A DNA stretch of 64,000 bases, taken from NCBI RefSeq assembly GCF_009649075.1, contig NZ_CP045737.1, forward strand, positions 1,674,001 through 1,738,000, written 5' to 3'. Shown here piece after piece: positions 22,121 to 44,309 of the stretch. The position numbers were made by a program, and so were the translations under genes. Within the stretch, counting starts at the first letter, position 1. Every line of letters starts with the position of its first letter. The stretch comes from Aeromicrobium yanjiei (GTDB taxonomy: Bacteria; Actinomycetota; Actinomycetes; Propionibacteriales; Nocardioidaceae). A model generated the notes under the pieces. That model did no database searches. It had not been told where the DNA came from and saw only the letters and a program-made list of their open reading frames with translations.

Positions 22121-24352
22121 ATGCCTGTTGCGCTCGGCGGCGACATGGGGCTGGATGCGGTCATCCTTGACGTCAAGCTCTCAGTTCCAGGACGTCGTCC
22201 CGGTCTCGTGACCCGTGCGGCGCTGACGGACGCGAGGTGGGACGCCGAGGCAGCCACTGTCGGCGTCACCGCGCCGGCAGGCTACGGGAAGTCCACGCTG
22301 TTGATCGAGCGGGCCCACGTCGAGGGTCGGAAGGTCGGGTGGATCTCGCTCGATGCGATCGACGACCATCCGAGCACGCTGCTCTTCTTGCTCGCGTCGG
22401 CATTCGAGCGAGCGGTTCCGGCGCACAGTGGTCTCGCCGCCGCCATCAGCGGCGTGGGCGCCGCAGCGCTGAGGTCGGGCACCCTGCGTCTCGCGGCGGC
22501 CTTCCAACAGGCGTCGGCACCGTTCGTCCTCCTGATCGATGACCTGCACGAGCTCAGGTCGCCCGAATGCCACGACGTCCTGGGCGTCGTGCTGGCCGCA
22601 ATTCCCATGGGCTGCCAAGTGGTGACGGCCAGCCGGCACGAACAACCGCACCTTGCTGGTCTGCGCGTGGCAGGAGGCGTGGTCGAGCTCGCAGCCCGGG
22701 ATCTCACCCTCGACGCGGCTGCGGCAGAGCGGATCTTCGCCACGGCCGGCATCTCGATCGATCTCCGCCGGGCACATGAGGTCGTCGAACGGACCGAGGG
22801 CTGGCCGGCAGGGCTTCAGCTGGCGGCTCTCGTTGCGCGTGAGGAGGAGGACGGGGCGCCGAGCGTGATCGGGACGGACCGCTACGTCTCCGACTACTTG
22901 GAGCGCGAGGTCTTCCGGCGGCTCGAGCCGGCCGAGCAACGATTCCTGCGCCGCACCGCCGTTCTCGACGAGTTGCACGGCCCGCTGTGCGGTGCCGTCC
23001 TGGGGGAGCCGGAGGCCCAGGACCGCCTGCGAGACCTTGAGGCGTCGAGCGCGTTCCTCGTGCCGCTGGACCGGCGAAGGGAGCGGTACCGCTGCCACAC
23101 CCTCTTCCGTGAGTTCCTCCTCGGTGAGCTTCATCGGCACGAGCCGGAGCTGATCGAGGAGCTGCACCTGCGGGCTGCGGACTGGTTCGAGTCCCACGAC
23201 GCACCGGCGGCGGCCGTGGAACACCTCCTGGGCACTCACGAGCAGCGCAGGTGCACCGAGCTGGTCGCCGAGCTCGTGCAGTCCGAGTACGGGAGTGGAC
23301 ACGCATCGACAGTCCAACGGTGGATGAAGACGCTCGGCCACCCCGCTATCGAGGCGTACCCGCCACTGGCGGTCCTGGCGGGGTGGGTCGCTGCGTGGGA
23401 GGGCGGGACCGTCGAGGCCCTGCGGTGGGCGGCGGTGGCGGACGACGCCTTCCATTCCCTGGCGACGACCGACCGGAGGGCGTCCTTCGCAGCCTCCCGA
23501 TCGGTGCTGCGGGCCATGATGTGTTCCGAGGGTCACGAACAGATGGTGGCCGACGCAGAGCTCGCCTCAGGCGACGAGGAGTGGAGCGTGTGGCGCCCAT
23601 CTGCCCTCTGCGTCCTCGCGGAGGCCCGCCTGCTCGCCGGCGAGCCAGCTCGTGCCGAGATGCTGTTCGAGGACGCGACCCGGGTCGGGCTCGCGATGGG
23701 CGACTCGGTCCCGGTCGCCCTCAGCGAGTCGGGCCTGGCCCTCATCTCGATGGATGACGGTCGGTGGGACGAGGCATCCGAGCACGTTGAGCTCGCGCTG
23801 AGCACGATCGAACAGCACCACCTGGATGACTGTGCGATCAGTCTGATGCCGCGCGCGGTCGCGGCTCGACTGGCCGTGCACCAGGCGGACCTGACCCAGG
23901 CCGACCTCCAGATCGCGCGCGCCATGAGGGCCAGGTCGGCGTCCACGTTCGTGTTCCCGTGCCTCGCCGCGAGGGGCCGGCTCCAGCTCGCCCGAGCGTG
24001 CTGGACCCGCGGTGACTACGAGGGCGCCAGGGTCCTTCTGCGGGAGATCGACGATGTTCTCCGACGCCGTCCGGGGCTGGGAACGCTGGTCGGTGAGATC
24101 GCCGCGTTCCGTGAGATGACGACGTCCGCAACCCCCGGCACCGCGCCCCGTGGGGTGGCTCTGACCCCGGCGGAGCTGCGCGTCCTTCCCTATCTCCAAA
24201 CTCACCTGCGGATCGCCGACATCGCTCAACGCCTCCACGTGTCTCGTAACACCGTCGCCTCCGAGGTCTCAGCGGTGTACCGCAAGCTCGGCGTCACCTC
24301 GCGCGGCGAGGCAGTCAGTCAGGCAACGCTGCTGGGTCTGCTGGGAGGGTGA
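22121..24352 (+). CDS. Large ATP-binding LuxR-family (MalT/LAL-type) transcriptional regulator
   Basis: A 743-residue STAND/LAL-type regulator. The P-loop APAGYGKST is near residue 50, with a Walker B-like FVLLIDDLHEL near 140. The middle third is helical and TPR-like (AWEGGTVEALRWA, ALSESGLALISMDDGRWDEA). The C-terminal LuxR HTH (about 680-743) starts LTPAELRVLPYL and has IADIAQRLHVSRNTVASEVSAVYRKLG. Such proteins bind an inducer and ATP, oligomerise and activate promoters. ATG 22121 follows AGGGGGA at 7 bases. It faces the glutamate decarboxylase operon head-on and is a candidate regulator of it, though only by position. Confidence 0.88.
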   Translation: MPVALGGDMGLDAVILDVKLSVPGRRPGLVTRAALTDARWDAEAATVGVTAPAGYGKSTLLIERAHVEGRKVGWISLDAIDDHPSTLLFLLASAFERAVPAHSGLAAAISGVGAAALRSGTLRLAAAFQQASAPFVLLIDDLHELRSPECHDVLGVVLAAIPMGCQVVTASRHEQPHLAGLRVAGGVVELAARDLTLDAAAAERIFATAGISIDLRRAHEVVERTEGWPAGLQLAALVAREEEDGAPSVIGTDRYVSDYLEREVFRRLEPAEQRFLRRTAVLDELHGPLCGAVLGEPEAQDRLRDLEASSAFLVPLDRRRERYRCHTLFREFLLGELHRHEPELIEELHLRAADWFESHDAPAAAVEHLLGTHEQRRCTELVAELVQSEYGSGHASTVQRWMKTLGHPAIEAYPPLAVLAGWVAAWEGGTVEALRWAAVADDAFHSLATTDRRASFAASRSVLRAMMCSEGHEQMVADAELASGDEEWSVWRPSALCVLAEARLLAGEPARAEMLFEDATRVGLAMGDSVPVALSESGLALISMDDGRWDEASEHVELALSTIEQHHLDDCAISLMPRAVAARLAVHQADLTQADLQIARAMRARSASTFVFPCLAARGRLQLARACWTRGDYEGARVLLREIDDVLRRRPGLGTLVGEIAAFREMTTSATPGTAPRGVALTPAELRVLPYLQTHLRIADIAQRLHVSRNTVASEVSAVYRKLGVTSRGEAVSQATLLGLLGG

Positions 24353-24376
24353 GCCCGGCCCCGGCCGGGCTCACCC
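24347..24376. terminator. Bidirectional hairpin between the LuxR regulator and gadB
   Basis: GGGTGAGCCCGGCC at 24347-24360 pairs with GGCCGGGCTCACCC at 24363-24376: 14 perfect pairs around a 2-base centre, between convergent genes. No T tract on either side. Confidence 0.65.
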
Positions 24377-24382
24377 CTGCCA

Positions 24383-25771
24383 TCAGTGGTGGAAACTGGT
24401 TCCCTCCTCGGCCGTCAGGGACTCCTTGGGTCCGTGCTTGTCGAGTACCGCCAGCGACCGGCGGTAGTCATCGAGCAGAAGCGAGGCCATGTCCCGGCTG
24501 AAGTCGTGACGCACCAGGATGCGCTGGATGGCCAGGTCCTCCCGATCGGGGGGCAACGTGTACGCGGGAACCTGCCAGCCGCGAGTGCGGAGCCGATCGG
24601 CCAGGTCGAACAGGTTGAATCCGTGGTCGATGCCCTCCTTGAGCTTCCAGGTGAGTCCCGGGATGCCGCCGCGGCCGTCGTAGATCATCTCGAACGGACC
24701 CATCTGGGCGATCTCGTCGGCGAGGTACCGTGCTGTCTCATAGCCCGCCTGGTGCACCTTGCGGTACCCCTCGCGGCCCAGGCGCAGGAAGTTGTAGTAC
24801 TGCGCCACGATCTGCCCCCCGGGGCGTGAGAAGTTCAGCGCGAACACGGCCATGTCACCGCCGAGGTAGTTGACATGGAAGACCAAGTCGTCCGGCAGTT
24901 CCTCGGCATCTCGCCACACGACCCACCCCACGCCCAGTGGTGCCAGGCCGAACTTGTGCCCCGAGGCATTGATCGACTTGACGCGCGGCAGCCGGAAGTC
25001 CCAGATCAGGTCCGGCTCGACGAACGGGGCGATGAATCCGCCACTTGCCCCGTCGACGTGCATCGGGACGTCGAGTCCGGTGTCCTCCTGGAGCTTGTCC
25101 AGCGCCGCTGCGACGTCTGCCACGGGCTCGTACTGGCAGGTGAACGTGACACCCAGCGTCGGGACGACGCCGATCGTGTTCTCGTCGACGCGCTTGAGCA
25201 CTTCCTCGGGGTTCATGAGCAGACGATCTCCCTCCATGGGGATCTCGCGGTGCTCGATGTCCCAGTAGCGGGTGAACTTGTGCCAGCAGATCTGGACCGG
25301 GCCGGTGACCAGGTTGGGCCTGTCGGTGGACTTGCCCTCGGCACGTCGGCGCTCGCGCCACTTCCACAACAGGGCCATCCCGCCGAGCATCGCCGCCTCG
25401 CTCGACCCCGTGGTGGAGGTGCCCATCGTGTCTGCTGATTCCGGGCTGTTCCAGAGGTCGGCAAGCATGTGCACGCAGCGGGCCTCGAGCTCGGCGGTCT
25501 GGGGATATTCGTCTTTGTCGATCATGTTCTTGTCGACCGACAACGCCATCAGCTCGTCGATCTCGGGCTCGACCCACGTCTGGCAGAACGTCGCGAGGTT
25601 CTGGCGCGAGTTCCCGTCAAGCATGAGCTCGTCGTGCACGACCTGGTACACATGCCGCGCCACGTGCTCGTCCGTGGGGAACCGGTACTTGGGCATCGGG
25701 ACCGAGAGGTCGGTCGACGCGAAGACGTCGTCCTCGATGGCCCCGCGGATCGTGTTCTTGTTGTGCAGCAT
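24383..25771 (-). CDS. gadB: Glutamate decarboxylase (PLP-dependent)
   Basis: Converts glutamate to GABA and CO2, consuming a cytoplasmic proton, the core of the GAD acid-resistance system. It is 462 residues long. The PLP lysine is K273 in [14 protein letters not shown]; the Asp that contacts the ring nitrogen is D240 in [25 protein letters not shown] binds the phosphate side. The tail ends TSFHH; in E. coli GadB a C-terminal His caps the active site at neutral pH, so the same switch is possible here. ATG 25771 (MLHNKN) follows GAGGAG at 9 bases. It is the last gene after the antiporter and lipoprotein genes on the minus strand. Confidence 0.95.
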
Positions 25772-25841: not shown

Positions 25842-26282
25842 CTAGGAGGTCGGGATGGTGTCGTCCGTCTTGAGCTCGCCGAGCACGTCTCGCAGCGAGC
25901 CGGCCTTCTCCGGGCAGTAGGTCGCAATCACGGCCACGTCATAGGCGACGATGCTGGGGTCGAGCCTCACTCGGCGAAGGTTGAGGGAGTTGTTGCCGAA
26001 CTGGGACAAGGACAACTCATGCTGGAGCTCGTTCACGTTCTCGCAGCTCACCCCGCCGTCGGTGCCGTAGAGAGCAGTGGCGGTTTCCTGGTCGACAGGG
26101 GGGAGCTCGAGGCGGGCGAGGTTGGCGTTGAGCTCGTCGGCGAGCCGCTGGGCCCGGGCGCTGCCGGGGTCGCTCGCCGTCCCCGACGGCGTGCACGCTG
26201 AGAGCCCGGCAGCCAGTGCCGCCGCGAGAATCGCCGTGCGCAGCCAGGTGAGACGGGTGGGAGTAGATCGCGTGACGGTCAT
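25842..26282 (-). CDS. Small lipoprotein within the gad operon, unknown function
   Basis: A 146-residue protein with a lipoprotein signal: [17 protein letters not shown], lipobox LSAC, Cys30. The mature part has two cysteines (VSCENVNE and ATYCPEKAG) and the pattern [19 protein letters not shown] do not recognise the family. It starts 5 bases after the antiporter stop and ends 70 bases before gadB, so it is almost certainly co-transcribed with both. A small envelope lipoprotein in a gad operon is unusual. Confidence 0.8.
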
Positions 26283-26287: not shown

Positions 26288-27757
26288 TCACGCCTCCTGT
26301 GCGGGGTCGTCGGAATGGGTGTGATCCGGGGAGGGGTCGATCTTCCACTCCGGTCTGCGCAGCTTGTACAGGACGAATGGCCAGATGCCGAGCAGGATGA
26401 TGCCGGCCACCAGGATCAGGATGTACACGCCCTGGGGAGTCGAGTCCGCGTTCCCGGACGGTTCGACGAAGCCGAGGAAGAAGGCGGCGAGGCTGCCGAG
26501 GAAGCCGACCCACCCGACCACCGGCATCGCCGGTGTACGGAAACCGCGAGGTACGTCGGGGTGGGTGCGCCGCAGCTTCATGGCGGCCAAGAACATGACC
26601 ATGTACATCAGCAGGTACAGCTGCACGGCCATCGCGGTCAGGATCCAGAAGACCGACTGCACGGAAGGCAGGATCGCGAACAGCACAGCCATCACGGTCA
26701 CGATCAGGCCCTGGACCATCATGATCGGGACCTGCATTCCCCGGCTGTTGGTGCCCTGCAGTCGGGGCGGGAGATAGCCCTCCTTGCCGACCAAGAGGAG
26801 TCCACGGCTCGGGCCGGGGATCCAGTTGACCACGGAGGCGAGGATCCCGATGACGATCAACAGGGCCATCACCGTGGTTGCCCAGGGGATCCCGAGATGA
26901 CCGAAGAAGACGTCGAACGCCTGGAGCACGCCCTGGGTCAGGTTGACGCTGGATCCCGGCACCGCCACGGAGATGGCGAGCGTGGGCAGGATGAACACGA
27001 ACAGGATGAGGACGACCGACAGGACGATCGCCTTCGGGAACTCTGAGCTGGGCTTGCGCATCTCCGTCACGTGCACGGCGTTCATCTCCATGCCGGCGTA
27101 CGAGAGGAAGTTGCTGACGATGAGCACGATGCTGGCGAGGCCCGTGAACTTGGGGAACCAGTTCGCGTCATCGATCGACTGCAGGTGCGAGGTGCCGCCG
27201 TCCTGCCAGAAGATGACCGCGAAGATGATGAGCGCCGCGGCGGGCACGATCGTCCCGGCCAGGAATCCCCAGGTGCTGACCTTCGCGAAGGTGTCGACCC
27301 CGCGGGTCGCGATCAGGGTCGAGAACCAGTACACGACGAGGATGACCAGGCCCGTGAAGAGGCCAGAGTTGGCGAGCTTCGGGTCGAACACGTAGGCGAG
27401 TGCGGAGGCGAAGAACGCCAGCTGCGCCGGATACCACGCAACGTTCTGCATCCACTGCTGCCAGATGGCAAAGAATCCGAGCCTGTCGCCGAAGGCCTCC
27501 TTGACCCAGACGAACACGCCGCCCTTCCAACCGCTGGCCAGCTCTGCTGCCACGAGGGCGACCGGCACCATGAACAAGATGGCAGGCAGGACGTACAGGA
27601 AGATCGATGCCCAGCCATACGCGGCCATCGCGGGAAGCCCGCGCACGCTCGCCACCGCAGTGGCGATGAGGATCGCCATCGAGGTCCAGCTGATGAACGT
27701 GCGGCCGGGTACAGATCTGCCGGAGGCAGGTGGATGTGCGTCTTTGTGCGTGGCCAT
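26288..27757 (-). CDS. gadC: APC-family amino-acid antiporter, probable glutamate/GABA exchanger
   Basis: A 489-residue, roughly 12-helix transporter of the APC superfamily. It shows the family's first-helix region (SWTSMAILIATAVASVRGLP), GGVFVWVKEAFGDRLGF, and SNFLSYAGMEMNAVHVTEM in the middle. The context (upstream of gadB in the same operon) argues for glutamate uptake in exchange for GABA; the symbol is based on that context and on family resemblance. ATG 27757 (MATHKDA) follows GGAAGGT. Its 5' leader is a near copy of the leader of the adjacent membrane gene, and a perfect DosR-type box lies 139 bases upstream of the start. Confidence 0.85.
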   Translation of the reverse strand: MATHKDAHPPASGRSVPGRTFISWTSMAILIATAVASVRGLPAMAAYGWASIFLYVLPAILFMVPVALVAAELASGWKGGVFVWVKEAFGDRLGFFAIWQQWMQNVAWYPAQLAFFASALAYVFDPKLANSGLFTGLVILVVYWFSTLIATRGVDTFAKVSTWGFLAGTIVPAAALIIFAVIFWQDGGTSHLQSIDDANWFPKFTGLASIVLIVSNFLSYAGMEMNAVHVTEMRKPSSEFPKAIVLSVVLILFVFILPTLAISVAVPGSSVNLTQGVLQAFDVFFGHLGIPWATTVMALLIVIGILASVVNWIPGPSRGLLLVGKEGYLPPRLQGTNSRGMQVPIMMVQGLIVTVMAVLFAILPSVQSVFWILTAMAVQLYLLMYMVMFLAAMKLRRTHPDVPRGFRTPAMPVVGWVGFLGSLAAFFLGFVEPSGNADSTPQGVYILILVAGIILLGIWPFVLYKLRRPEWKIDPSPDHTHSDDPAQEA

Positions 27758-27840: not shown

Positions 27841-27895
27841 CTCCGGCCTGGCGTTGACCCACGCGGTGAAAAGGACCGACGGATCACGAAGCAGG

Positions 27896-27909
27896 GGGAC
27901 CTTCGGCCC
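27896..27909. promoter_or_regulatory. DosR-type box upstream of the gad operon
   Basis: GGGAC-CTTC-GGCCC, an exact match to the actinobacterial DosR half-site pattern GGGAC-N4-GGCCC, 139 bases before the antiporter start and in the 203-base gap between the two membrane genes. Confidence 0.6.
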
Positions 27910-27960
27910 CGCCCGGGGAGCCGTTGTTCCTGGCCGTCGTACGTGTCAGAGGATGCGACG

Positions 27961-28640
27961 TCACTGAAGGACGTTCACCGCCCGGGCGACGACGAGGCCG
28001 GTGATGATGAGTGAGATCAGCGCCTGGATCGACATGATGGCCTTGGCCCACGGCACGAGCGGCATGACATCGGTCGGGCTGAACGCCGTGGCGTTGGTCA
28101 GGCCGAGGTAGAGGTAGTCGACGAAGCGCGGGCGCCACCCCTCGGGACTCACCCCGGGGTTGAGCTGCTGCGGAAACGCCAGGTCTGGGTAGCGCGGCAT
28201 CCGCTCGGCGCGAGCTGCGGAGCCCCCGCAGTCGAGCTCGAAGTAGAGAACCGCGCACGCGATGACGGTGCCGAGCCAGACGCACGAGCCCGCCTGCAGC
28301 AGCTCCACCGCCGAATCGGTCTCGTGACCGTCCCTGCAGATGTCATCGACGAGCTGGATCGTCGACCAGATCGCTCCCAAGGACAGCACGACGCTCAGCG
28401 CGACGGATGCGATACGGAGCAGCGTGGTCCGTCTCGAGATCTGCCCCGGGTCGCCGGCGAGCAGTGCTGCGAGCAGCAGCCCGCACACAGTGGGCAGCAC
28501 CCATGGCCGAGACAGCCTCAGGGTGTCCGGGAGCAGGGCCTTATCACCATGGCAACCACCACCGCCACCGCCATGGGCCACCGTGTCTCGCCGTAGGCGT
28601 CCCCCGCGTGCCGAGCGTCCGGCTTGCGTCGCGTAGCCAT
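27961..28640 (-). pseudogene. Frameshifted multi-span membrane protein gene
   Basis: The gene starts at ATG 28640 (MATRRKPDAR) behind a leader copied from the antiporter. It reads ETRWPMAVAVVVAMV and then loses frame. In the neighbouring frame the protein continues ALLPDTLRLSRPWVLP and runs to 27961. The junction is at 28541-28549: one missing base in the run read on the minus strand as GTGATAAGG would restore a 226-residue protein with about five helices. The later part (VDYLYLGLTNATAFSPTDVMPL) resembles DUF1345-like membrane proteins, which is a weak call. The cause may be a real mutation, a sequencing indel, or recoding; a start inside the second frame could also give a shorter protein. 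Confidence 0.7.
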
Positions 28641-28761: not shown

Positions 28762-29274
28762 GTGACAGCTGTGCGTCTTCGGCAGTGGGCGCAGGTCGAG
28801 GAGCAGACCGTGCGGAGCTTCGACGCGCTCGCCGCGGCGTACGCGCCCGGCGCGGCGGACGCGGTCGAGCCGGACCCCGACCTGATGGATCTCGGAGACC
28901 TGGGCGAGGCCGTCCTGACGCGCCGGGCGCTCCGCTCCTTGGCGCGGGCCACGCAGACCGCATTGATCATCCTCGCGGACGCCGCCTCCGGGCCGGATGA
29001 CGACGCCGAGGACGCCTCGGCCGCCCGAGCGGTTCTGCCGTGGCGCTCGGGGTCCAACGGCCCTACCTTGCGGCCCAGCGGCCAAGAAGAGTGCACGTGT
29101 AGCAACCCGTCGGGGGAGTCCCCGGTCGGTCCGACGGAGCAGAAGCCGGAGACCTCCATGAACCTCACTCCACGCGAGATCGACAAGACCTACGCCGCGA
29201 CCTACGACGGGACCGTTGCCACGATCGAACCGGCCGAGACGCTGCCCGTGACGCAGCTGTTCTTCCTCGCGTGA
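28762..29274 (+). CDS. Hypothetical reading frame upstream of, and in frame with, the urease remnant
   Basis: GTG 28762 opens a frame whose first 85 or so residues (RLRQWAQVEEQTVRSFDALA, LGDLGEAVLTRRALRSLARA) look like a helical protein. The next part (SGSNGPTLRPSGQEEC onward) looks like untranslated sequence, with a DosR-type box and a hairpin inside it. The frame then runs by chance, or after loss of a stop, into the ureA start at 29158. A short gene ending near 29030 that has lost its stop is possible. No family is recognised, and a coding role is unproven. Confidence 0.3.
   Translation: MTAVRLRQWAQVEEQTVRSFDALAAAYAPGAADAVEPDPDLMDLGDLGEAVLTRRALRSLARATQTALIILADAASGPDDDAEDASAARAVLPWRSGSNGPTLRPSGQEECTCSNPSGESPVGPTEQKPETSMNLTPREIDKTYAATYDGTVATIEPAETLPVTQLFFLA
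29050..29063. promoter_or_regulatory. DosR-type box upstream of the urease remnant
   Basis: GGGTC-CAAC-GGCCC, one mismatch to GGGAC-N4-GGCCC, 95 bases before the ureA' start. Confidence 0.45.
29107..29137 (+). promoter_or_regulatory. Hairpin in the urease remnant leader
   Basis: CCGTCGG at 29107-29113 pairs with CCGACGG at 29131-29137, and GGG/CCC pairs inside. It lies 20 bases before the ureA' start codon, behind which GGAG serves as ribosome-binding site. It could be a leader RNA element left from the intact operon. Confidence 0.35.
29158..29274 (+). pseudogene. Urease remnant: ureA start fused to ureC end
   Basis: A 38-residue reading frame. It begins MNLTPREIDK, which matches the start of the urease gamma subunit (UreA: xLTPREx(D/E)K). 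It ends TYDGTVATIEPAETLPVTQLFFLA, which matches the end of the alpha subunit (UreC: DGxxxTCEPAxxLPxAQRYFL). The rest of ureA, all of ureB and most of ureC are missing, and the junction keeps the reading frame. The start codon retains a good ribosome-binding site (GGAG). ureF follows 7 bases later, as it would in an intact operon. I read it as an internal deletion scar; the peptide itself is unlikely to be an enzyme. Confidence 0.75.
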
Positions 29275-29281: not shown

Positions 29282-29977
29282 ATGGACGCCTCAGACCTGC
29301 GGCAGCTGCTCGCGAGCCTGCAATTCTCGGACTCGGCCTTCCCGAGCGGCTTCTACACGATGTCGCACGGACTCGAGGGCTACAGCCAGGCCGGGCTGGT
29401 CGACCGCGGTGACGTGCGCGACCTGCTGGAGGACCTGCTCGTCCACGCGGTCGGTCCCGGGGACGCGACGGCTCTGGCCGTCGCGCACCGGGCCGCGAGG
29501 GCCACTGACTGGGACGGGGTGCAGGAGGCTGATCAACGCCTCTTCGCGTCCAAGCTCACGGCCGAGATGCGCCGGGCCTCGGTGCGCAGTGGTCATCAGC
29601 TCATCGACATGGCCGGCGAGGTCGTCGGCGGCGACGGCATCGCGGAGTACGCCGGCCGGGTGACCGCCCGGGCGACACCGGGATGCCAGCCGGTCGCGAC
29701 GGCCGTCGTCTACGCGTCCACCGGGCTCACCACCCGGTCGGCGGTCGCGTCGGACCTGTTCGCGTACGCGGTCAGCTTCGTGGGCGCCGCCCTGCGGCTC
29801 CGGCTCACGGACCAGCGGCACGCCCAGGTCGTGCTGTATGACATCGCCCCGGTGATCGAGCGCGTCGCCCTCGACGCGGTCGAGCGTGACCTGCAGGACC
29901 TCGGCGGATGCGCTCCCGTCGCCGACATCATGTCGGCCCGTCACGAACGAGCCGACGCGCGGCTGTTCGCCAGCTGA
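29282..29977 (+). CDS. ureF: Urease accessory protein UreF
   Basis: A 231-residue helical protein of the UreF family, which with UreD/H and UreG helps insert nickel into urease. It begins with the family pattern LLASLQFSDSAFPSGFYTMSHGLE and keeps the conserved C-terminal half (VGAALRLRLTDQRHAQVVLY). The frame is intact from ATG 29282 to 29977. Its partners are gone: the structural genes survive only as the 38-residue fusion upstream and ureG as a broken stub 39 bases downstream. It is therefore an orphan and probably on its way to loss, unless urease is encoded elsewhere. Confidence 0.88.
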   Translation: MDASDLRQLLASLQFSDSAFPSGFYTMSHGLEGYSQAGLVDRGDVRDLLEDLLVHAVGPGDATALAVAHRAARATDWDGVQEADQRLFASKLTAEMRRASVRSGHQLIDMAGEVVGGDGIAEYAGRVTARATPGCQPVATAVVYASTGLTTRSAVASDLFAYAVSFVGAALRLRLTDQRHAQVVLYDIAPVIERVALDAVERDLQDLGGCAPVADIMSARHERADARLFAS

Positions 29978-32611: not shown

Positions 32612-32612
32612 G

Positions 32613-34907: not shown

Positions 34908-34996
34908 GCGCGGGAGGGAGCAAAGCCTCATCCTCCGTGCGTGTCGCGCTGCTTGCCTGATCTGCATCCGATCATCCGTACGGAGAGGACCTCACC

Positions 34997-36571: not shown

Positions 36572-36805
36572 TCAGGCCACCGTGCGGCGGCGCGCCTCGT
36601 GCACGACCCGGTCGTCCAGCAGCCGTCTGGCGATCTGCTCGCACAGCACGACCGGGTCGTCCGTGCTGCTCGCGGATCGCAGGACGAGCCGATCGGCTTG
36701 GTAGACCAGCCGCATGACCTGACCGGGCACGAGGATCCCCTCGAACTCGGATATCAGACGGCCGGCGAGGTCGGCGATCTTCAGGCGGTGGGTCACAGCG
36801 TCCAT
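36572..36805 (-). CDS. Small helical protein (77 residues), unknown function
   Basis: The protein MDAVTHRLKIADLAGRLISE and onward is mostly helical with a short basic end (EARRRTVA). It resembles the small three-helix-bundle dimerisation domain found beside actinobacterial stress regulators, a low-confidence match. The start ATG 36805 has GGGAGCTGTG upstream. It is divergent from the CtpF-like ATPase across 147 bases that contain a DosR-type box, so it is likely part of the same regulon. Confidence 0.6.
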   Translation of the reverse strand: MDAVTHRLKIADLAGRLISEFEGILVPGQVMRLVYQADRLVLRSASSTDDPVVLCEQIARRLLDDRVVHEARRRTVA

Positions 36806-36864
36806 CACAGCTCCCTGGTTGGGGTTGGACAGTCCATTTTCCGCCCCGGTGCGTGCGCCGCGTA

Positions 36865-36878
36865 GTGACCAACGGCCC
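36865..36878. promoter_or_regulatory. DosR-type box between the small protein and the P-type ATPase
   Basis: GTGAC-CAAC-GGCCC, one mismatch to GGGAC-N4-GGCCC, 74 bases before the ATPase start and 59 from the small protein. Confidence 0.5.
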
Positions 36879-36952
36879 TGCGCGCCGGGGGGATCCCCCC
36901 GCAGGACCATCGCCTCTGGGTCGGGACGGGGGCCCGGGCTGGACTTGCGGGC

Positions 36953-39667
36953 ATGGCCCCAGGTGCAGCAGGCGACGTGCAGACCTACCACGACCTCACC
37001 GCTCACGAGGCGTTGCTGCTCCTGGAGAGTGATCACCGCACGGGGCTCGACCGGGACGAGGCGCGGAGCCGGCTCGAGCGGTTCGGACCCAACAGCCTCC
37101 CGCAGGCGAAGGGCGAAGGGGCGGTACGCCGGTTCCTGCGCCAGCTCAACAGCCCGTTGGTGATTGTGCTGATCGTGGCAGGCATCGTCACGCTGCTGCT
37201 GGACGAGGTGGTGGACTCCTCGGTGATCTTCGGCGTCGTGGTCATCAACGCGATCCTGGGCTTCGTGCAGGAGTCGAAGGCCGAGTCGGCGCTGGAGGCG
37301 CTGCGATCGATGGTCCACACGACCGCGACGGTCGTGCGCAGTGGCGCGCAGCAGAGAATCCCGTCGGAGGAGCTCGTCCCGGGTGACCTCGTGCTGATCG
37401 AGGCGGGGGACCGGGTGCCGGCCGATGTGCGTCTCATCAGCGAGAGCCACCTGAAGGTCGACGAGTCGGCGCTCACGGGGGAGTCCCTGCCGGTCGAGAA
37501 GGGGCACGTCCTCCTGCCGACCGAGACCGCGGTCGCCGACCGGGTCAACATGGCCTTCTCCGGCACGTTGGTCACCAGCGGGTCGGGGTCCGGCATCGTG
37601 GTCGGGACCGGCGGGGAGACCGAGCTCGGCGAGATCCACCGCCTGGTGGGCAGCACCGAGACGATGGCCACCCCGCTGACCCGCAAGCTCGCGAAGTTCA
37701 GTACCCAGCTGACCGTCGTCATCCTGGCCCTGGCAGTGATCGCCTTCATCGCCGGCGTCGCCCAGGGTGAGTCGGCGACGGACATGTTCGTGGCCGTCGT
37801 GGCCCTCGCGGTGGGTGCCATCCCCGAGGGTCTCCCGGCCGCGGTGGCGATCACCCTGGCGATCGGGGTGTCGCGGATGGCGCGGCGGCGCGCCGTGATC
37901 CGCCGGCTCCCGGTGGTGGAGACCCTGGGCAGCGCGACCGTGATCTGCTCGGACAAGACCGGGACGCTGACCGAGAACCGGATGACGGTCCAGAGCGTCT
38001 GGACGGTCGACGGGGAAGTCGCCGTCGCGGGAGACCGGGCGAGCCAGCCCGGCTCGGTCGGTGGTGCGGTCCACTGGTGCCTCCTGGTCGGCGCCAACTG
38101 CAATGACGCGTGGATGGCCGAGGACGGGACGCCGTCGGGCGATCCCACCGAGACCGCGATGCTGACGGTCGCGCAGCACCACGGCATCGAGCCGCGCGGT
38201 CTCGAGCGGGTCGGGTCGCTGCCGTTCAGCTCGGAGCGGCAGTACATGGCCACGACCCACGTGGACCCGCAGACCGGCGACCGGCTGCTGATGGTCAAGG
38301 GCGCCGTGGAGCGGGTCCTCCACGTCAGCACACACCAGATGGCCGCCGACGGGACCACCGAGCCCCTCGACGAGGGCGCCGTGATGGCTGCGGCCGAGGG
38401 ATACGCGCAGCAGGGCATGAGGGTGCTTGCCACGGCGTTCCAGCGCAACCCCGAGGACGACGCCCTCGACGGGCTCGTGCGCGGCGAGGTCCACGGCCTG
38501 GTCTTCACCGGGCTGGAGGCGATGATCGACCCGCCACGGGCGACCGCCGCCGACGCCGTGCGGTCGTGCCACGAGGCCGGCCTGTCGGTCAAGATGATCA
38601 CCGGTGACCACGCGACGACGGCCGCGGCGATCGCCCGCCACATCGGGATCCTGCGGGAGGACGGCGACGGCAGCGTCCTCACCGGCGGTGAGATCGAACG
38701 CATCGACGAGAGCGGTCTGCCGGAGGCGGTCGAGCGGGCCTCGGTGTTCGCACGGGTCACCCCCGAGCAGAAGCTGAGGCTCGTGAAGGCCCTGCAGTCA
38801 CGCGACCACGTCGTCGCGATGACGGGGGACGGGGTCAACGACGCGCCGGCGCTCAAGCAGGCCGACATCGGCATCGCGATGGGAGTCGTCGGCACCGAGG
38901 CGGCCAAGGACGCCGCGGACATGGTGCTCACCGACGACGACTTCGCGACGATCGAGGCTGCGGTCGAGGAGGGGCGCGGCGTGTTCGACAACCTCACCAA
39001 GTTCATCGTCTGGACCTTGCCGACGAACCTCGGTGAGGGGCTGGTGATCCTCGTGGCGATCCTGCTCGCCACCGACCTGCCGATCCTGCCCACCCAGATC
39101 CTGTGGATCAACATGACGACCGCGGTGCTCCTCGGACTGACCCTGGCGTGGGAGCCCAAGGAGCCCGGCATCATGGCGCGTCCACCGCGGGACCCGCACG
39201 CGCCGATCTTCGGACGTCCCGAGGCGGTCCGGACCGTGCTCGTCTCCCTGTTGCTCCTCGCGGGCTCGTGGTGGGTCTACCGCTCCGAGCGCGACGCAGG
39301 GGCGTCGATCGACGCGAGCCGGACGGCCGCGGTCAACGTCTTCGTCATGGTCGAGGCCTTCTATCTGTTCAGCTGCCGCTCGCTTCGACGTCCCGGCTGG
39401 ACCGCGGGCCTGTTCGCGAACCCCTACCTGGTGGCTGGCGTCGCGCTGCAGGCCGTGGGCCAGCTCGGCCTGACGTACGTCCCGGCGATGAACACGCTGT
39501 TCCAGACCGCTCCGATCGGGTGGGACAGCTGGCTGCGGATCCTCGCGGTGGCCGTGGTCGTCTCCGCGGTCGTGGCGGTCCACAAGCATCTCGAGATCGG
39601 CCGCGCCGCACGGGAGACCGGCACGAGCACGGCCCGTCACGCACGAACGACGTCCCGTCGATCCTGA
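36953..39667 (+). CDS. ctpF: Cation-transporting P-type ATPase (CtpF-like, P2 type)
   Basis: A 904-residue P2-type ATPase. An N-terminal cation-ATPase domain is followed by helices 1-2 near 68-105, TGES (about 175-178) of the actuator domain, PEGLP (291-295) in helix 4, the phosphorylation site D334 in CSDKTGTLT, KGAVERV in the nucleotide domain, and TGDGVNDAPALKQADIGIAM. Length and order match mycobacterial CtpF, a calcium-exporting ATPase that belongs to the DosR regulon; the ion here is inferred from that similarity. A DosR-type box lies in its promoter. A 14-bp hairpin overlaps its stop. Confidence 0.92.
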   Translation: MAPGAAGDVQTYHDLTAHEALLLLESDHRTGLDRDEARSRLERFGPNSLPQAKGEGAVRRFLRQLNSPLVIVLIVAGIVTLLLDEVVDSSVIFGVVVINAILGFVQESKAESALEALRSMVHTTATVVRSGAQQRIPSEELVPGDLVLIEAGDRVPADVRLISESHLKVDESALTGESLPVEKGHVLLPTETAVADRVNMAFSGTLVTSGSGSGIVVGTGGETELGEIHRLVGSTETMATPLTRKLAKFSTQLTVVILALAVIAFIAGVAQGESATDMFVAVVALAVGAIPEGLPAAVAITLAIGVSRMARRRAVIRRLPVVETLGSATVICSDKTGTLTENRMTVQSVWTVDGEVAVAGDRASQPGSVGGAVHWCLLVGANCNDAWMAEDGTPSGDPTETAMLTVAQHHGIEPRGLERVGSLPFSSERQYMATTHVDPQTGDRLLMVKGAVERVLHVSTHQMAADGTTEPLDEGAVMAAAEGYAQQGMRVLATAFQRNPEDDALDGLVRGEVHGLVFTGLEAMIDPPRATAADAVRSCHEAGLSVKMITGDHATTAAAIARHIGILREDGDGSVLTGGEIERIDESGLPEAVERASVFARVTPEQKLRLVKALQSRDHVVAMTGDGVNDAPALKQADIGIAMGVVGTEAAKDAADMVLTDDDFATIEAAVEEGRGVFDNLTKFIVWTLPTNLGEGLVILVAILLATDLPILPTQILWINMTTAVLLGLTLAWEPKEPGIMARPPRDPHAPIFGRPEAVRTVLVSLLLLAGSWWVYRSERDAGASIDASRTAAVNVFVMVEAFYLFSCRSLRRPGWTAGLFANPYLVAGVALQAVGQLGLTYVPAMNTLFQTAPIGWDSWLRILAVAVVVSAVVAVHKHLEIGRAARETGTSTARHARTTSRRS

Positions 39668-39692: not shown

Positions 39693-40541
39693 TCAGACCG
39701 TGTAGTCCGGAGGCACCACTGCCACGGGCCGTCGCCCGGCGCGGGCCAGCGCGCGGGCCACGGGCGCCCGCCACCCGCGCAGGGCGCCCGAGTGCGGACG
39801 GCCGGCGACCACCAGGGCGCCGTCGCCCGCGACGGCCAGGGTCTCGTCCGCAGGATCCTTGCCCTCGATCAGCTCGGACGTGACGTTCAGGTCCGGATAG
39901 GTCTCCGACCAGCCCGCCAGCACCTCGGCCAGGTGCACCCGTGACATCTCGATGTCCTTGGCCGCCTCCCGGTGGCGCATCACGTGCAGGACGCGCAGGT
40001 CGACCGAGATCTTGTCGGCCAGCTCGAACGCGAACTGCACGGGGCCGGACGCCGACGTCTGGGTGTCGACCGCGACGATGATCTGCTCGACCTCGAAGCT
40101 GTCGACCCCGGGCGGGACCACGATGACCGGGCTGTGGGCGTGCAGGACGAGGAAGTTGGTGACCGCCTCACCTGTGAGCCGGTCCAGCCACCCGACGTCG
40201 TCGGTGCCGACGACGACCGACTTCGCGCCGTCGCTCTCGGATCCGAGCACCGCGGGAGGGAAGCCGGCGACCAGCTCGTACGCGATGTCGGGCTGCGGCT
40301 CGTCGGCCTCGAGGTGCTTCTCGGCGTCCGTCAACGTCTTGCGCGCAGCCGTGACGATGCTGTCCGGCAGGTCGCCCACCGAGAGGGGCGAGAACGCGTA
40401 CGGATACGGGATCTGGCACGCGTGGACGACACGCAGGCGGGTCTCGTAGAGCCTGGCGAGCTCGCGGGCGAAGTCCAGCACCCCCGGTTGCTGGTCGCGG
40501 ACACCGACCACGACGGGGCGCTCATTGGCTGGCAGGTTCAT
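39693..40541 (-). CDS. Tandem universal stress protein (two UspA domains)
   Basis: A 282-residue cytosolic protein with two Usp domains (about residues 8-143 and 150-278). Each shows the strand-helix start (VVVGVRDQQPGVLDFA; IIVAVDTQTSASG) and the closing strand (SPVIVVP; RPVAVVP). The ATP-binding G-x2-G-x9-G pattern is degenerate, so nucleotide binding is uncertain. Tandem Usp proteins are the commonest members of DosR regulons in mycobacteria. It starts 5 bases after the hsp20 stop and is co-transcribed with it. Confidence 0.92.
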   Translation of the reverse strand: MNLPANERPVVVGVRDQQPGVLDFARELARLYETRLRVVHACQIPYPYAFSPLSVGDLPDSIVTAARKTLTDAEKHLEADEPQPDIAYELVAGFPPAVLGSESDGAKSVVVGTDDVGWLDRLTGEAVTNFLVLHAHSPVIVVPPGVDSFEVEQIIVAVDTQTSASGPVQFAFELADKISVDLRVLHVMRHREAAKDIEMSRVHLAEVLAGWSETYPDLNVTSELIEGKDPADETLAVAGDGALVVAGRPHSGALRGWRAPVARALARAGRRPVAVVPPDYTV

Positions 40542-40546: not shown

Positions 40547-40960
40547 CTACTCGCCTCGCTCGATCGTGACCTTCTGCGCCTGGTCGTCAGCGGTCTTGAC
40601 GGGCACACGGACCTCCAGGATCCCGTTCGTGTACGTCGCCTTCACCTCTGACGCCACGGTGCCTGTCGGTACGCGGACCTTGCGGGTGAACGATCCGTAG
40701 CGGTGCTCCTGGAGGTTCTTCTCCTTCTTCTCCTCGTGCCGCTCGCCGTGGATCGTCAAGATGTCGCCCTCGACGGTCACGCTCACGTCCTTGTCCGGGT
40801 CGACGCCCGGCAGCTCGGCCCGCACGACGTACTGACCGTCCTCCACGAAGTCCTCGATCGGGACTGCGGGAGACACGCCCACGCGGCGGACCTCACCGTC
40901 GAGCCAGTCCATCAGGTCCGTGAAGGGTCCTTGTGGACGTCGAACGATGCTGGGGGTCAT
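40547..40960 (-). CDS. Small heat-shock protein, Hsp20/alpha-crystallin family
   Basis: A 137-residue chaperone. A short N-terminal arm (FTDLMDWLDGEV) precedes the alpha-crystallin domain (about residues 35-130): YVVRAELPGVDPDKDVSV, LTIHGERHEE, YGSFTRKVRVP, and the A-x-x-x-N-G-(I/V)-L signature ATYTNGILEVRVP. It is the first gene of the operon with the universal stress protein. A DosR-type box lies 101 bases upstream of ATG 40960. Family members hold unfolded proteins without ATP; mycobacterial HspX has the same regulon position. Confidence 0.95.
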   Translation of the reverse strand: MTPSIVRRPQGPFTDLMDWLDGEVRRVGVSPAVPIEDFVEDGQYVVRAELPGVDPDKDVSVTVEGDILTIHGERHEEKKEKNLQEHRYGSFTRKVRVPTGTVASEVKATYTNGILEVRVPVKTADDQAQKVTIERGE

Positions 40961-41074: not shown

Positions 41075-41300
41075 TGTTGAGGGACGTCGACGGACGCGGG
41101 TCGACGGAGGCGACGCACGGCCGCCCCACGTGCTCCGAGGGAGGGGCGCGTAGGGCGGTCGAGGAGATCGAGAGCACCGTTGGATGGGCCGGTGGTGCTG
41201 TCTTCTCGGGTTCCACTGTGAAGGTGCGAGGCGAGCCGCTCAAGGGACCAATGTCATCGGTGATCGTGCCGCGGCCCAACTCCTGCGAGCAGGTTCAGGG

Positions 41301-41314
41301 GGGACGTTAGGCCC
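41301..41314. promoter_or_regulatory. DosR-type box upstream of the DosR-like regulator
   Basis: GGGAC-GTTA-GGCCC, an exact match, 164 bases before the regulator start. It would allow autoregulation. Confidence 0.6.
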
Positions 41315-41477
41315 TATGCCCCAGAGCACGCCCGGGATGGTCTGGAGCCTGCAGGAACGGGGCGGCGGCAACTCCCACCGACTCGTGATCGCGGCCCAGA
41401 TGCCAGATAGTGGCGCAGGTGTCACAGTCAATGAGCGAACTACGTCACACGCCACGCGGTTCGGAGGGGGAGCGGTC

Positions 41478-42197
41478 ATGATTCGTGTGTTCTTGCTGGA
41501 CGATCACGAGGTGGTACGGGCGGGCGTCAAGGAGCTGCTGGAGCGAGACGGTGACATCGTGGTCGTCGGCGAGGCAGGCACGGCTGCAGCGGCGCTGTCG
41601 CGGATCCCGGCCGTGAAGCCTGACGTCGCAGTCCTCGACGGCCGCCTGCCGGACGGGAGCGGGATCGAGGTCTGCCGGCAGATCAGGTCGCGGCAGGCCG
41701 AGATCGGCGCGATCATCCTCACGTCGTACGACGACGACGACGCGCTGTTCTCGGCCATCGTCGCGGGCGCCGCAGGCTACGTGCTCAAGCAGATCAGGGG
41801 GCAGGAGCTCGTCGATGCGGTGCGCCACGTCGCGGGGGGCGGCTCCCTCCTGGATCCGCTCGCGACGGCGAAGGTCATGGAGCGGCTCCGCGTCGGCAGT
41901 CCGGAGGAGCCGGACGAGTTCAAGCGGCTGACCCCGCAGGAACGCCGCATCCTGGTGCTGGTCGCCGAGGGGCTGACCAATCGACAGATCGGCGAGCGTC
42001 TCAAGCTCGCGGAGAAGACCGTGAAGAACTACATGTCCAACGTGCTGGCCAAGCTCGGGTTCGAGCGGCGCACCCAGGCAGCAGTCTTCGCCAGCCGGTT
42101 GCTCGAGGAGCCCGAGTCCGGGTCGGGCGAGGCGAAGAAGGTCGAGGCGGCCCAGAACGGCACGGGGGAGTGGCACGCAGGATGGCGGCATGACTGA
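41478..42197 (+). CDS. devR: DosR/DevR-like response regulator (NarL/LuxR family)
   Basis: A 239-residue two-component regulator. The receiver domain begins MIRVFLLDDHEVVRAG; the phosphorylated Asp is D54 in DVAVLDGRLPDG, the same number as in M. tuberculosis DosR; ILTSYDDDD carries the switch Thr/Ser. The LuxR-type HTH (about residues 150-210) reads LTPQERRILVLVAEGLTNRQIG and AEKTVKNYMSNVLAKLGFERRTQAAVFA, nearly the DosR recognition helix. A 25-residue charged tail is extra. ATG 41478 follows GGAGGGGGAG. It overlaps the next gene by 8 bases and faces the DosS-like kinase. Confidence 0.93.
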   Translation: MIRVFLLDDHEVVRAGVKELLERDGDIVVVGEAGTAAAALSRIPAVKPDVAVLDGRLPDGSGIEVCRQIRSRQAEIGAIILTSYDDDDALFSAIVAGAAGYVLKQIRGQELVDAVRHVAGGGSLLDPLATAKVMERLRVGSPEEPDEFKRLTPQERRILVLVAEGLTNRQIGERLKLAEKTVKNYMSNVLAKLGFERRTQAAVFASRLLEEPESGSGEAKKVEAAQNGTGEWHAGWRHD

Positions 42198-42618
42198 GCG
42201 GTTCGGGCGTCCGGGGACGTTCGCACGGCCACCCGACCCGGGCCGTCAGCCGGTCATCACCGTGGTGGTGCTGGGTGATGAGTTCTCCGGCGCGATGGCG
42301 TACGCGCTCGACTGTGCACTGTTCATGCCTGCGAGTGTCCGGGCCGTCCGGGTACGTCCGCGGTCGCGGCTCGAGCGGCCGTGCCCGATCCCGGTCGACG
42401 ACCTGAGCGGGGTCCCGTCCGCTTCCCTGGCCAAGGTCAGCGCGTGCTCGGACCGCATGGTCGTCCAGAGCGGGGGGCGGGACGTCGATCCCACCCTCCT
42501 CGACCTCCGCCGGCAGACCTCCAGCCCGGTGGTGGAGGTCGACGGCAACGGGGTGGTCATGCGGGTCTCGGACCCGCGCGGGTGGTCGATGCCGGCCGTG
42601 GGACGACATGCCGGCTGA
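42190..42618 (+). CDS. Small Usp-like hypothetical protein coupled to the DosR-like gene
   Basis: A 142-residue frame that starts inside the end of the response regulator (8-base overlap). The core VITVVVLGDEFSGAMAYALDCALFM looks like the first strand and helix of a Usp-type Rossmann fold, but the nucleotide motif is absent and the end is Gly/Pro-rich. No family is certain. Overlap and position support it as a real gene in the regulator's operon. It stops 14 bases before the convergent kinase gene. Confidence 0.6.
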   Translation: MTERFGRPGTFARPPDPGRQPVITVVVLGDEFSGAMAYALDCALFMPASVRAVRVRPRSRLERPCPIPVDDLSGVPSASLAKVSACSDRMVVQSGGRDVDPTLLDLRRQTSSPVVEVDGNGVVMRVSDPRGWSMPAVGRHAG

Positions 42619-42632
42619 CCGGTCCCGCGACG

Positions 42633-44309
42633 TCAGATGGGCACTGCCCAGGCCACCTGGGTGCCTCCGCCGGGAGCCTCCTGCAGTGCGAACGTCCCGC
42701 CCAGGGCCTCCGCACGGCGGCGGAGGTTGGCCAGGCCGCTCAGCTCGTTGCCCCGGCCCGGACCGATCCCGTCGTCCGTGACCTCGACGCTGACCTCATG
42801 GGGCGTGACCGTCACGGCGATGTCGACCCTGGTGGCCTCGGCATGACGGACGACGTTCATGAGCGACTCGGTAACGACCGCGGCCACGTCGTCCCTGCGC
42901 GTGCCCGACACGACGGTGTCCACGGGCCCGGCGAGGACCACATGGGTCGTGCCCGGGGACTGGCCGGTCACCCGGTCGATGATCTGCAGGATCCGGGTGC
43001 GGAGATTGACCGCACCCGGCCCCTCGTCATGGCGCAGCGCGAAGATGCTCTGCCGGATCTGCGCGATGGCGCCGTCGATCTCGTCGACCTGGCGGGAGAT
43101 GCGCTCGGCGGCGTCGCCGCCGAGCATCGCGCCGACTCCCTCGAGATTGAGACCGGTCGCGAACAGGCGCTGGATCACGTGGTCGTGGAGGTCGCGGGCG
43201 ATCCGGTTGCGGTCCTCGAGGACGGCCACCCGGCGCTGGCTCCGCAGCAGCTCGCGGCGCTGCAGGGACACGTTGATGTGCGTCGCGAACGACTTGCCCA
43301 TCTCCAGGTCGCGTCCGCCGAAGGCACCCCCACCGACCTCACGGCACACCACGAGCACACCGGGCGGCTGGTCGTGCCGGGTGAAGGGCACGATCATCGA
43401 CGGCCCGGACAGCGCAGGGATGGCCAGTCCGCCCAGCCCCGCACGACTCACGCCGTCGGCGAGGACCGACTCACCCCGGAAGATCGCCTCGGTCAGCACC
43501 ATCTCGTTCAACGGGAACGAGAGCTCGCTCAGGTCGCCGGCGTCATCGCCGGACGCGCGTTCGACGACGGCGTGCCCCTCGCTCGTGACCAGCGCGACGA
43601 ACGCCAGATCGGCCCCGGCCAGCGTGCGCACCTCGTCGACGATGTGGCCGATCTGGTCCTCGTCGTCGTGCTCCACGAGCCTGCGGGCCATGTCGGCAAG
43701 GGCCGACGACCAGGTCGCGCGGTAGGTCGAGGCGTCGAACAGCCGCGCGTTCTGGATCGCGATCCCGGCGGTGGCGGCGAGCGCCTCGGCCAGCTCCTCG
43801 TCAGCTGCGGTGAACGTCTCCGTCCGGCTGTCCGCGATGTAGAGGGTCCCGTAGAGCGCGTCGTGCACCTTGATCGGCACGCCGAGGAAGCTGCGCATCA
43901 GCGGGTGGTGCGGCGGGAACCCCACCGACCGCTCGTCGGCGTCGACCAACGAGAGCCGGACCGGGCGCGGATCGTCGATCATGGCTCCGAGCAGACCCCT
44001 GCCCTGCGGGACGCGGCCGATCATGTCGACCACCTCCTGCTCCATCCCGGCGTGGATCAGCTCCTTGATCCGCCGTTCATCGCCGAGGATCCCGATCGCC
44101 GCGTAGCGGGCGTCGAGCAGCTCCTTGCCGACCTCCACGATTCGCTGGAGGATCTCGGCCATGTCCAGGCTGCTGGTGAGCTCGTGGTTGATCCGCACGA
44201 GGTCCCGCAATCGGTCGTGCGAGTAGGCCGCGTCCGGAACCCGGGCCGGCACATGCATCGTTGTGTGGTCTCGTGACCGTCCTGCGCTCCCCGGCCTGGA
44301 TGCGTCCAT
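42633..44309 (-). CDS. devS: DosS/DevS-like sensor histidine kinase with heme-type GAF domain
   Basis: A 558-residue soluble kinase. GAF-A (about residues 45-190) keeps the heme ligand pattern of M. tuberculosis DosS: FPPHHP gives H135 as the equivalent of His149, and GTLY gives Y157 as the equivalent of distal Tyr171, with the same 22-residue spacing. GAF-B spans about 200-345. The HisKA_3 phosphoacceptor is H375 in IARDLHDHVIQRLF. The HATPase shows VTESLMNVVRHAEA and DDGIGPGRGNELSGLANLRRRAE. It should phosphorylate the DosR-like regulator in response to low O2, NO or CO. ATG 44309 follows GAGGGAG. Unlike in mycobacteria it is convergent with, not downstream of, the regulator. Confidence 0.93.
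   Translation of the reverse strand: MDASRPGSAGRSRDHTTMHVPARVPDAAYSHDRLRDLVRINHELTSSLDMAEILQRIVEVGKELLDARYAAIGILGDERRIKELIHAGMEQEVVDMIGRVPQGRGLLGAMIDDPRPVRLSLVDADERSVGFPPHHPLMRSFLGVPIKVHDALYGTLYIADSRTETFTAADEELAEALAATAGIAIQNARLFDASTYRATWSSALADMARRLVEHDDEDQIGHIVDEVRTLAGADLAFVALVTSEGHAVVERASGDDAGDLSELSFPLNEMVLTEAIFRGESVLADGVSRAGLGGLAIPALSGPSMIVPFTRHDQPPGVLVVCREVGGGAFGGRDLEMGKSFATHINVSLQRRELLRSQRRVAVLEDRNRIARDLHDHVIQRLFATGLNLEGVGAMLGGDAAERISRQVDEIDGAIAQIRQSIFALRHDEGPGAVNLRTRILQIIDRVTGQSPGTTHVVLAGPVDTVVSGTRRDDVAAVVTESLMNVVRHAEATRVDIAVTVTPHEVSVEVTDDGIGPGRGNELSGLANLRRRAEALGGTFALQEAPGGGTQVAWAVPI

Follow-up and report, generated by a model that had tools for sequence, protein, structure and literature searches.

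Sensor kinases of the DosS type are known to respond to low oxygen or nitric oxide (NO), and the targets of Mycobacterium tuberculosis DosR include Hsp20 and a P-type ATPase; we know of no arginine deiminase (arc) or glutamate decarboxylase (GAD) genes in that regulon. Arginine deiminase operons are under the control of ANR, FNR or ArcR in Pseudomonas, Bacillus and Staphylococcus, where low oxygen turns on arcABC for the production of ATP without respiration. M. tuberculosis itself is said, in the title of one study, to metabolise arginine anaerobically through arcA. Here we describe a 64-kb stretch of DNA (positions 1674001-1738000, on contig C2 of the 3.68-Mb Aeromicrobium yanjiei genome; hereafter, “the window”) in which an arc operon and a GAD cassette lie near a DevR/DosR-type response regulator and a DosS/DosT-type kinase. 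Judging from its genes, their conservation and the predicted operator sites, this island is probably a low-oxygen regulon of the DosR (DevR/OsdR) type into which fermentative arginine catabolism has been recruited. Arginine deiminase very probably belongs to the regulon; GAD possibly does.

The closest described systems share some of these parts. With M. tuberculosis DevR/DosR and DosS/DosT, the island has in common a regulator with an identical recognition helix, a GAF-type kinase and palindromic boxes. Passages on the M. tuberculosis regulon include universal stress proteins (Usp) among its members (PMC5071874), and passages elsewhere report a rise in arcA in a model of dormancy brought on by potassium starvation (PMC4221891, PMC8044303); those passages of the three papers that deal with arcA do not assign it to DosR. 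The main texts of the papers on DosR in M. abscessus and M. avium mention neither arginine nor glutamate decarboxylase, and the passages concerned of the R. equi genome paper mention arginine deiminase separately from DosR boxes. Streptomyces coelicolor OsdR/OsdK, as portrayed in sections of its description (PMC5069765), shares with the island a near-identical box consensus, near-identical individual boxes, a usp-rich neighbourhood and a DevR orthologue. The predicted OsdR targets given in those sections are usp, nar, PPDK, nitroreductase and others, and neither “arginine” nor “glutamate decarboxylase” occurs in the main text. The likeness to the operons controlled by ANR, FNR or ArcR lies in the low-oxygen use of arcABC for respiration-free ATP. 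GadB-GadC acid resistance shares the decarboxylase and the antiporter, to which the window adds a lipoprotein, a putative LAL-type regulator and a nearby DevR-type box. We found neither arc nor gad described as a target of a DosR-type regulator in the open-licence literature, a scope in which absence is not proof.

Regulator, kinase and palindromic boxes

Genes were identified by profile-family searches and by reading of translations (Table 1). The two approaches agreed on what an earlier note on this DNA had listed: a complete GAD set (decarboxylase, antiporter and lipoprotein), an arc operon (arcABC, 31622-34837) with a transporter, the trio of Hsp20, tandem Usp and CtpF-like ATPase, and a DosR-like regulator with a DosS-like kinase. 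The four components of an arginine deiminase pathway (arcA, arcB, arcC and a carrier) occur together, and the core DosR-type targets Hsp20, Usp and P-type ATPase are present near the regulator. Residues 1-217 of the latter align to residues 1-216 of DevR; the recognition helix LAEKTVKNY is identical, as is ERRTQAAVFA. The first GAF domain of the kinase matches DosT (1.7e-40) and DevS chains, and its GFPPHHPLM motif aligns with their histidine motif, the histidine of which we take to be the heme-holding residue in DosT/DevS.

Candidate operators were scored with a matrix built from 26 published OsdR sites, all of them predicted, found in sections of PMC5069765. This matrix was chosen because one derived from an alignment of the island’s own promoters would have been circular. 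That alignment, made with two congeners, revealed palindromes in common (in what follows, G and L numbers denote genomes and fetched DNA stretches, respectively; the window genome is G000, and the two congeners are G002 and G048). A matrix made from the genus’s own boxes served as a lead only. A hand-made symmetric score was dropped, having been devised after the sites were seen; at spacing 16 it gave 10 matches, every one of them in the island, vs. 5-8 in simulations.

The top four matches to the OsdR matrix in the 64 kb fall in the hsp20-regulator, kinase-AAA, gadC and s77-ctpF intergenic regions, and that of arcA-arcD ranks eighth. All of the 12 best matches lie within 22.1-44.5 kb, as do 15 of the 19 that score at least 8 (79%, in a region that constitutes 35% of the window). 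Four of these 12 are inside genes or a urease-remnant open reading frame (ORF; 31688, 27242, 29049 and 43601), and two (30405 and 30314) are in a scarred stretch described below. Matrices with permuted columns, which preserve base composition and not order, indicate that the placing is unusual: 30 of them put 0-54% of their matches in the island, vs. 79% for the OsdR matrix. Five of the nine island intergenic regions (gadC, arcA-arcD, s77-ctpF, hsp20-regulator and kinase) have palindromic boxes that reach 10.9. When 984 permuted matrices were applied, no region reached this score in 899 cases, one did in 81 and two did in 4; there were never more than two.

The boxes themselves resemble those of OsdR, whose consensus is AGGGCCGATCGGCCCT. 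Among the predicted OsdR sites are AGGGACCTTCGGCCCC and CGGGACCTTCGGCCCT, which differ by a single letter each from the boxes of gadC and arcA, and the sections of the OsdR paper that cover binding report gel shifts for those predicted sites that were tested (PMC5069765). The window contains no match to the mycobacterial 20-mer consensus TTSGGGACTWWAGTCCCSAA when up to five mismatches are allowed. Beside its main box, the hsp20-regulator promoter contains a weaker one at 41038 and a palindrome at 41060 that aligns in the congeners and scores below 8 with the OsdR matrix here. The arcA box scores 14.1 in G002 and 15.7 in G048, and boxes upstream of the kinase score 14.2 and 11.0, respectively. 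Taken together, the boxes of arcA, kinase, hsp20-regulator and ctpF span 13.2-14.2 in G002; in G048, those of arcA and hsp20-regulator span 14.2-15.7, and ctpF has none above 9.5.

Recurrence of the arc-DosRS linkage in the Nocardioidaceae

ArcA was sought in 294 genomes of the family, part of a larger group, at E 1e-150; the window’s ArcA type is carried by 39 of them. Within the genus it occurs in three of 49 genomes (90-100% identity). Outside it there were 37 matches, of which 36 loci were fetched and the 37th (G160) lies within L004. As controls, we used 69 named non-Nocardioides arcA loci (mostly Streptomyces) and 20 loci from other families. A locus was scored as linked if a DosR-like (>=50% identity) and/or DosS-like gene lay within the fetched stretch. 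In all of these comparisons the loci are kin and not independent samples, the stretches differ in length, with some stopping at contig ends, and gene calls in the relatives are based on frame composition and BLAST.

In the two congeners with the arcC-to-kinase block (G002 and G048), its genes are arranged and oriented as they are in the window. A DosR- and/or DosS-like gene accompanies arc in 3/3 genus loci and in 23/37 other loci of the family (L004 has none), and at least one of regulator, kinase, P-type ATPase, Usp and Hsp20 is present in 25/36 of the non-genus loci. The order of the genes is not constant: in Nocardioides sp. Root140 the kinase and regulator come after arcC, and in sp. SLBN-35 they come before arcD. 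The named loci, mostly Streptomyces, are unlike those of the Nocardioidaceae: none of 69 has a regulator or kinase beside arcA (one has a Usp), and none of 68 has a box at the arcA position. Not one of the 20 arc loci from other families has a regulator, kinase, P-type ATPase, Usp or Hsp20. Among the class-wide matches listed, nearby ArcA-regulator pairs were noticed only in the rows of one family (f1), an impression gained by eye, with no count. The gene-order comparison that the earlier note had proposed finds an arc-DosRS linkage that recurs in congeners and in the family.

Does the box at arcA recur as well? We examined the interval from -80 to -66 relative to the arcA start, which was picked after inspection of earlier box positions, and applied a common threshold to all groups, set at 95% (or 99%) of the other offsets. 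At 95%, boxes were found in 3/3 genus and 15/36 family loci (18/39 together), vs. 0/68 named and 2/19 other-family controls; at 99%, the numbers were 3 in the genus, 6/36 in the family and 0 in either control group. Group-specific thresholds gave 23/39 for the family vs. 0/68 for the named controls. When the best box within 150 bp was considered, 14/36 family loci qualified at p 0.05 and 6/36 at p 0.01, the respective values for the named controls being 6/69 and 0/69. One of the 20 other-family loci (L242) has a strong box at -140, outside the arcA position.

A second ArcA lineage, 51-53% identical to that of the window, is found in seven congeners. In five of the seven, the stretch also contains genes for a regulator resembling DosR (71-79%) and a kinase resembling DosS (49-59%), with Usp in all five and a P-type ATPase in four, and each of the five linked stretches has a box of at least 11 outside the arc genes. 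In a tree of 76 ArcA rows (midpoint-rooted, with several long branches), the two types occupy separate starred clades, and ArcA proteins of other families are placed around the second. The linkage requires 11 changes on this tree vs. 24.4 in shuffles. The simplest reading of these sequence comparisons, which do not amount to proof, is that arc was joined with DosRS twice. If true, the family would offer a clear example of repeated recruitment into a regulon, with two different arc operons next to regulators of one kind.

In one genome (G021, L232-L233), two DosR-like regulators (78% and 76%) are separated by ~21 kb; an arc operon, two P-type ATPases and a number of Usp genes lie between or close to the two.

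A proposed DosR-type arginine regulon and its alternatives

The island may operate as follows; the signal, the binding, the direction of regulation and the flux are predicted. The GAF kinase, a putative heme-based gas sensor, would phosphorylate the DevR orthologue when oxygen falls or when NO or carbon monoxide binds. Once phosphorylated, the regulator would bind 16-bp palindromes between its own gene and hsp20, upstream of the kinase and ctpF genes, in the divergent arcABC-arcD promoter and, probably, before gadC in this species. ArcA, ArcB and ArcC would convert arginine to ornithine and ammonia with the gain of one ATP, made by carbamate kinase without respiration, and ornithine would exit through the DcuC-type carrier. 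GadB and GadC, if included, would use up one proton per glutamate and export gamma-aminobutyrate (GABA). Usp, Hsp20 and the P-type ATPase would represent the usual, protective dormancy cargo. Should this be true, a DosR-type regulon gains a direct non-respiratory source of ATP, which bears on how dormant actinobacteria stay energised, and its output would be measurable as arginine use and the release of ornithine and ammonia.

Several observations weigh against a DosR-type regulon that includes arc. The window genome’s own arcA box scores just 10.9. No DosR- or DosS-like gene is present in the stretches of 14/37 non-genus arc loci (some of these stretches being short), and no box occupies the arcA position in 21/36 family loci at 95% or in 30/36 at 99%, in an interval that was picked post hoc. 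The total of 19 matrix matches in the window is ordinary, in that 30 permuted matrices gave 5-42, and the fetched loci have a background of 1.7 matches of at least 13 per 64 kb, to be set against four in the window. The boxes could be used by a second DosS-like kinase (33%) and a 67% DosR-like regulator, which are encoded elsewhere in the genome. The DcuC/YfcC-type carrier is a probable arginine/ornithine exchanger, with a substrate deduced from gene position. Finally, neighbours may stay together by shared descent without shared regulation.

A wider proposal, which we advance tentatively and rate at slightly below an even chance, is that in the Nocardioidaceae a DosR/DosS switch, and not a Crp/Fnr-type protein, governs arginine fermentation, that the switch became linked at least twice with unrelated arc operons, and that here it also commands glutamate decarboxylation, coupling ATP supply to proton consumption as the cell goes into low-oxygen survival. 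The main alternative, a serious one that we would nonetheless not bet on, keeps arc in the DosR-type regulon and treats GAD as a separate cassette for acid resistance, controlled by a LAL-type regulator of its own and adjacent only by accident, the gadC box being due to chance or a relic. The GadB-GadC pair itself is complete, with both proteins above curated cut-offs and with the lysine of the INASGHKFG motif presumably being the pyridoxal phosphate (PLP) lysine of GadB. Its association with the island is the point at issue. GadC (at 1e-100) occurs in 39/294 family genomes and adjoins the island in just two, G000 and G048; just 2/39 family arc loci have GAD in their neighbourhood. At the same threshold G002 has no close GadC, and other GAD loci are elsewhere, so GAD was rejected as a constant partner of the island. 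In five family genomes (G076, G181, G193, G198 and G246), GadC (85-89%) and window-type ArcA are ~56 kb or more apart. At the thresholds applied, dosRS genes are absent from all 11 other GAD stretches (one of them, L164, contains a regulator of 37% identity), and the best box among 28 other gadC upstream regions scores 7.9; the matching place in G048, at 7.8, does not exceed this background, which counts against membership.

The cassette has, moreover, a probable regulator of its own. The earlier note placed the start of the island at 22121, which is the start region of a regulator read as LAL-type, convergent with gadB, that it did not mention. An 88% identical copy adjoins GAD in G048, and a regulator read as LAL accompanies GAD in 3/11 other stretches (L155-L157). 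The lipoprotein is likewise a companion of GAD: it is 84% identical in G048 and 55-67% identical in 8/11 other GAD stretches.

The case for GAD membership stems from the gadC box of the window, which at 14.0 is the third best. Its 16-mer is identical to a box 155 bp before a Usp gene in congener G047. Exact GGACCWWCGGCCC has three copies in the 3.68-Mb genome, namely the gadC box, the arcA box and one inside a kinase gene; a reversed control pattern also has three. A P-type ATPase lies beside gadC or gadB in 2/11 other GAD stretches, one of which, L162, additionally has a Usp gene with a 12.5 box. From this evidence we lean slightly toward the inclusion of GAD in the DosR-type regulon of the window species.

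L162 (G171; 2700-10800) presents a GAD cassette followed directly by the P-type ATPase, with the Usp gene nearby and the 12.5 box ~350 bp from that Usp gene, and is a possible second GAD-DosR link.

The earlier note regarded the island as a combination of three acid-resistance systems. A single acid-resistance island, one that responds to acid and uses arc, gad and urease jointly for pH control, is very unlikely. The arginine deiminase and GAD systems are both present and are known to counter acid. On the other side, urease has been destroyed, the sensor resembles gas-sensing GAF kinases, G002 retains arc-DosRS and a urease cluster with no close GadC, and arc-DosRS occurs in the family with no GAD nearby. 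One programme coupling low oxygen or acid to ATP and pH control, as the note had put it, survives as a shared DosR-type programme suggested by the boxes and by the recurrence of arc-DosRS; GAD is more weakly attached than was implied, and acid as a signal finds no support. Chance or hitch-hiking in a region that collects acquired genes without shared regulation is the least likely reading: the rarity of the window-type arc in the genus, the deletions in the urease stretch and the coming and going of GAD are in its favour, and against it are the same order in three species, linkage in most other family loci despite varying order, the linked second arc lineage and the boxes.

Urease remnants and neighbouring features

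The earlier note was correct that remnants of a urease operon are present, and they do not add up to a functional system. No intact ureABC structural genes remain. DNA matching to G002 jumps at 29186-29194, within a ureA-ureC scar whose final residues are nearly those at the end of the intact G002 ureC. This scar is the first of three in a row (29158-29271, 30017-30150 and 30500-30721) where G002 carries longer genes; at the third, the G002 gene encodes 405 residues and begins almost identically. G002 retains ureA, ureC, ureF and ureG together with genes that read like nickel and urea transporters, and neither ureF nor ureC had a match in the 56 kb fetched from G048. The urease alpha subunit was not found in the window genome by a search that was positive in 4/14 control genomes. 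Urease is dead and takes no part in the island’s programme. It was rejected as an island partner; the deletion scars and the missing alpha subunit therefore leave two systems, not three.

Table 1. Features of the island, with positions in the window and the basis for each assignment.
Feature	Positions	Strand	Basis and remarks
LuxR/LAL-type (MalT-like) regulator	22145-24352 (about)	+	Label read from translation; convergent with gadB
gadB, glutamate decarboxylase	24383-25771	-	TIGR01788 4.7e-195, above cut-off; INASGHKFG motif
Small lipoprotein between gadC and gadB	25842-26282	-	Translation; LSAC motif
gadC, glutamate/GABA antiporter	26288-27757	-	NF053662 1.3e-208, above cut-off
DevR/OsdR-type box GGGGACCTTCGGCCCC	27895-27910		~150 bp upstream of gadC; score 14.0, third best in 64 kb
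Membrane protein upstream of gadC	27961-28581	-	No family match; 74% and 76% relatives in GAD stretches L156, L158
ureA-ureC scar	29158-29271	+	Ten ureA codons (29158-29187) fused to last 28 ureC codons (29188-29271)
ureF, whole but orphan	29282-29977	+	PF01730 6.6e-32
Broken ureG fragment	30017-30150	+	Read from translation
SQD1-like epimerase gene scar, two ends left	30500-30721	+	Weak Epimerase match, 0.00021; SQD1 label by reading
arcC, carbamate kinase	31622-32611	-	TIGR00746 2.5e-109, above cut-off
arcB, ornithine carbamoyltransferase	32613-33614	-	TIGR00658 3.8e-125, NF003286 3.5e-156, above cut-offs
arcA, arginine deiminase	33617-34837	-	PF02274 1.3e-120; NF002381 8.6e-158, above cut-off; TIGR01078 slightly below its cut-off
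DevR/OsdR-type box, arcA-arcD divergent promoter	34893-34908		Toward arcA: CAGGACCTTCGGCCCT at -71; score 10.9, eighth in window
arcD, DcuC/YfcC-type carrier	34997-36547	+	PF03606 6.1e-110; NF008611 1.3e-75, below cut-off
s77, 77-residue ORF	36572-36805	-	70% identical in G048, 86% in G002; kept in three species
DevR/OsdR-type box AGTGACCAACGGCCCT, s77-ctpF promoter	36864-36879		Score 13.2; identical in G002, degraded in G048
Calcium-type P-ATPase, CtpF-like	36953-39667	+	TIGR01522 1.8e-211, below its cut-off; PF00122, PF00689
Tandem universal stress protein	39693-40541	-	PF00582, two stretches
Hsp20/alpha-crystallin	40547-40960	-	PF00011 6.1e-21
DevR/OsdR-type box GGGGACGTTAGGCCCT, hsp20-regulator divergent promoter	41300-41315		Score 15.0, best of 64 kb
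DevR/DosR-type response regulator, NarL family	41478-42197	+	Match to M. tuberculosis DevR 3c3w, 5.3e-72
u142, 142-residue ORF	42190-42618	+	Overlaps regulator end; 53% and 59% in congeners
DosS/DosT-type histidine kinase	42633-44309	-	GAF-GAF-HisKA_3-HATPase; GFPPHHPLM motif
DevR/OsdR-type box CGGGACGACCGGCCCC, kinase-AAA/VWA intergenic	44452-44467		Score 14.7; weaker box at 44429

A pair of genes for an AAA-ATPase and a VWA-domain protein (44495-47892), divergent from the kinase and 35 bp from a DevR-type box, is 87-95% conserved in both congeners and may belong to the regulon. The small ORFs s77 and u142 both adjoin genes of the dosRS island, and relatives of u142 (37-39%) lie near dosRS in L230, L231 and L233. 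At the other end, ARAGORN reports a doubtful tRNA-Thr (ggt) of 92 bases (21227-21318), which falls within a long ORF (20764-22017).

Elsewhere in the window genome, Usp clusters (L115-L117) have boxes of just 9.8-12.4, and the second DosRS-like stretch has boxes of 11.7 and 12.6 (threshold 9.5). The 12.4 box (L117, 12205; about 1267205 on C2) stands ~250 bp before another P-type ATPase gene, with a Usp gene ~1.3 kb off.

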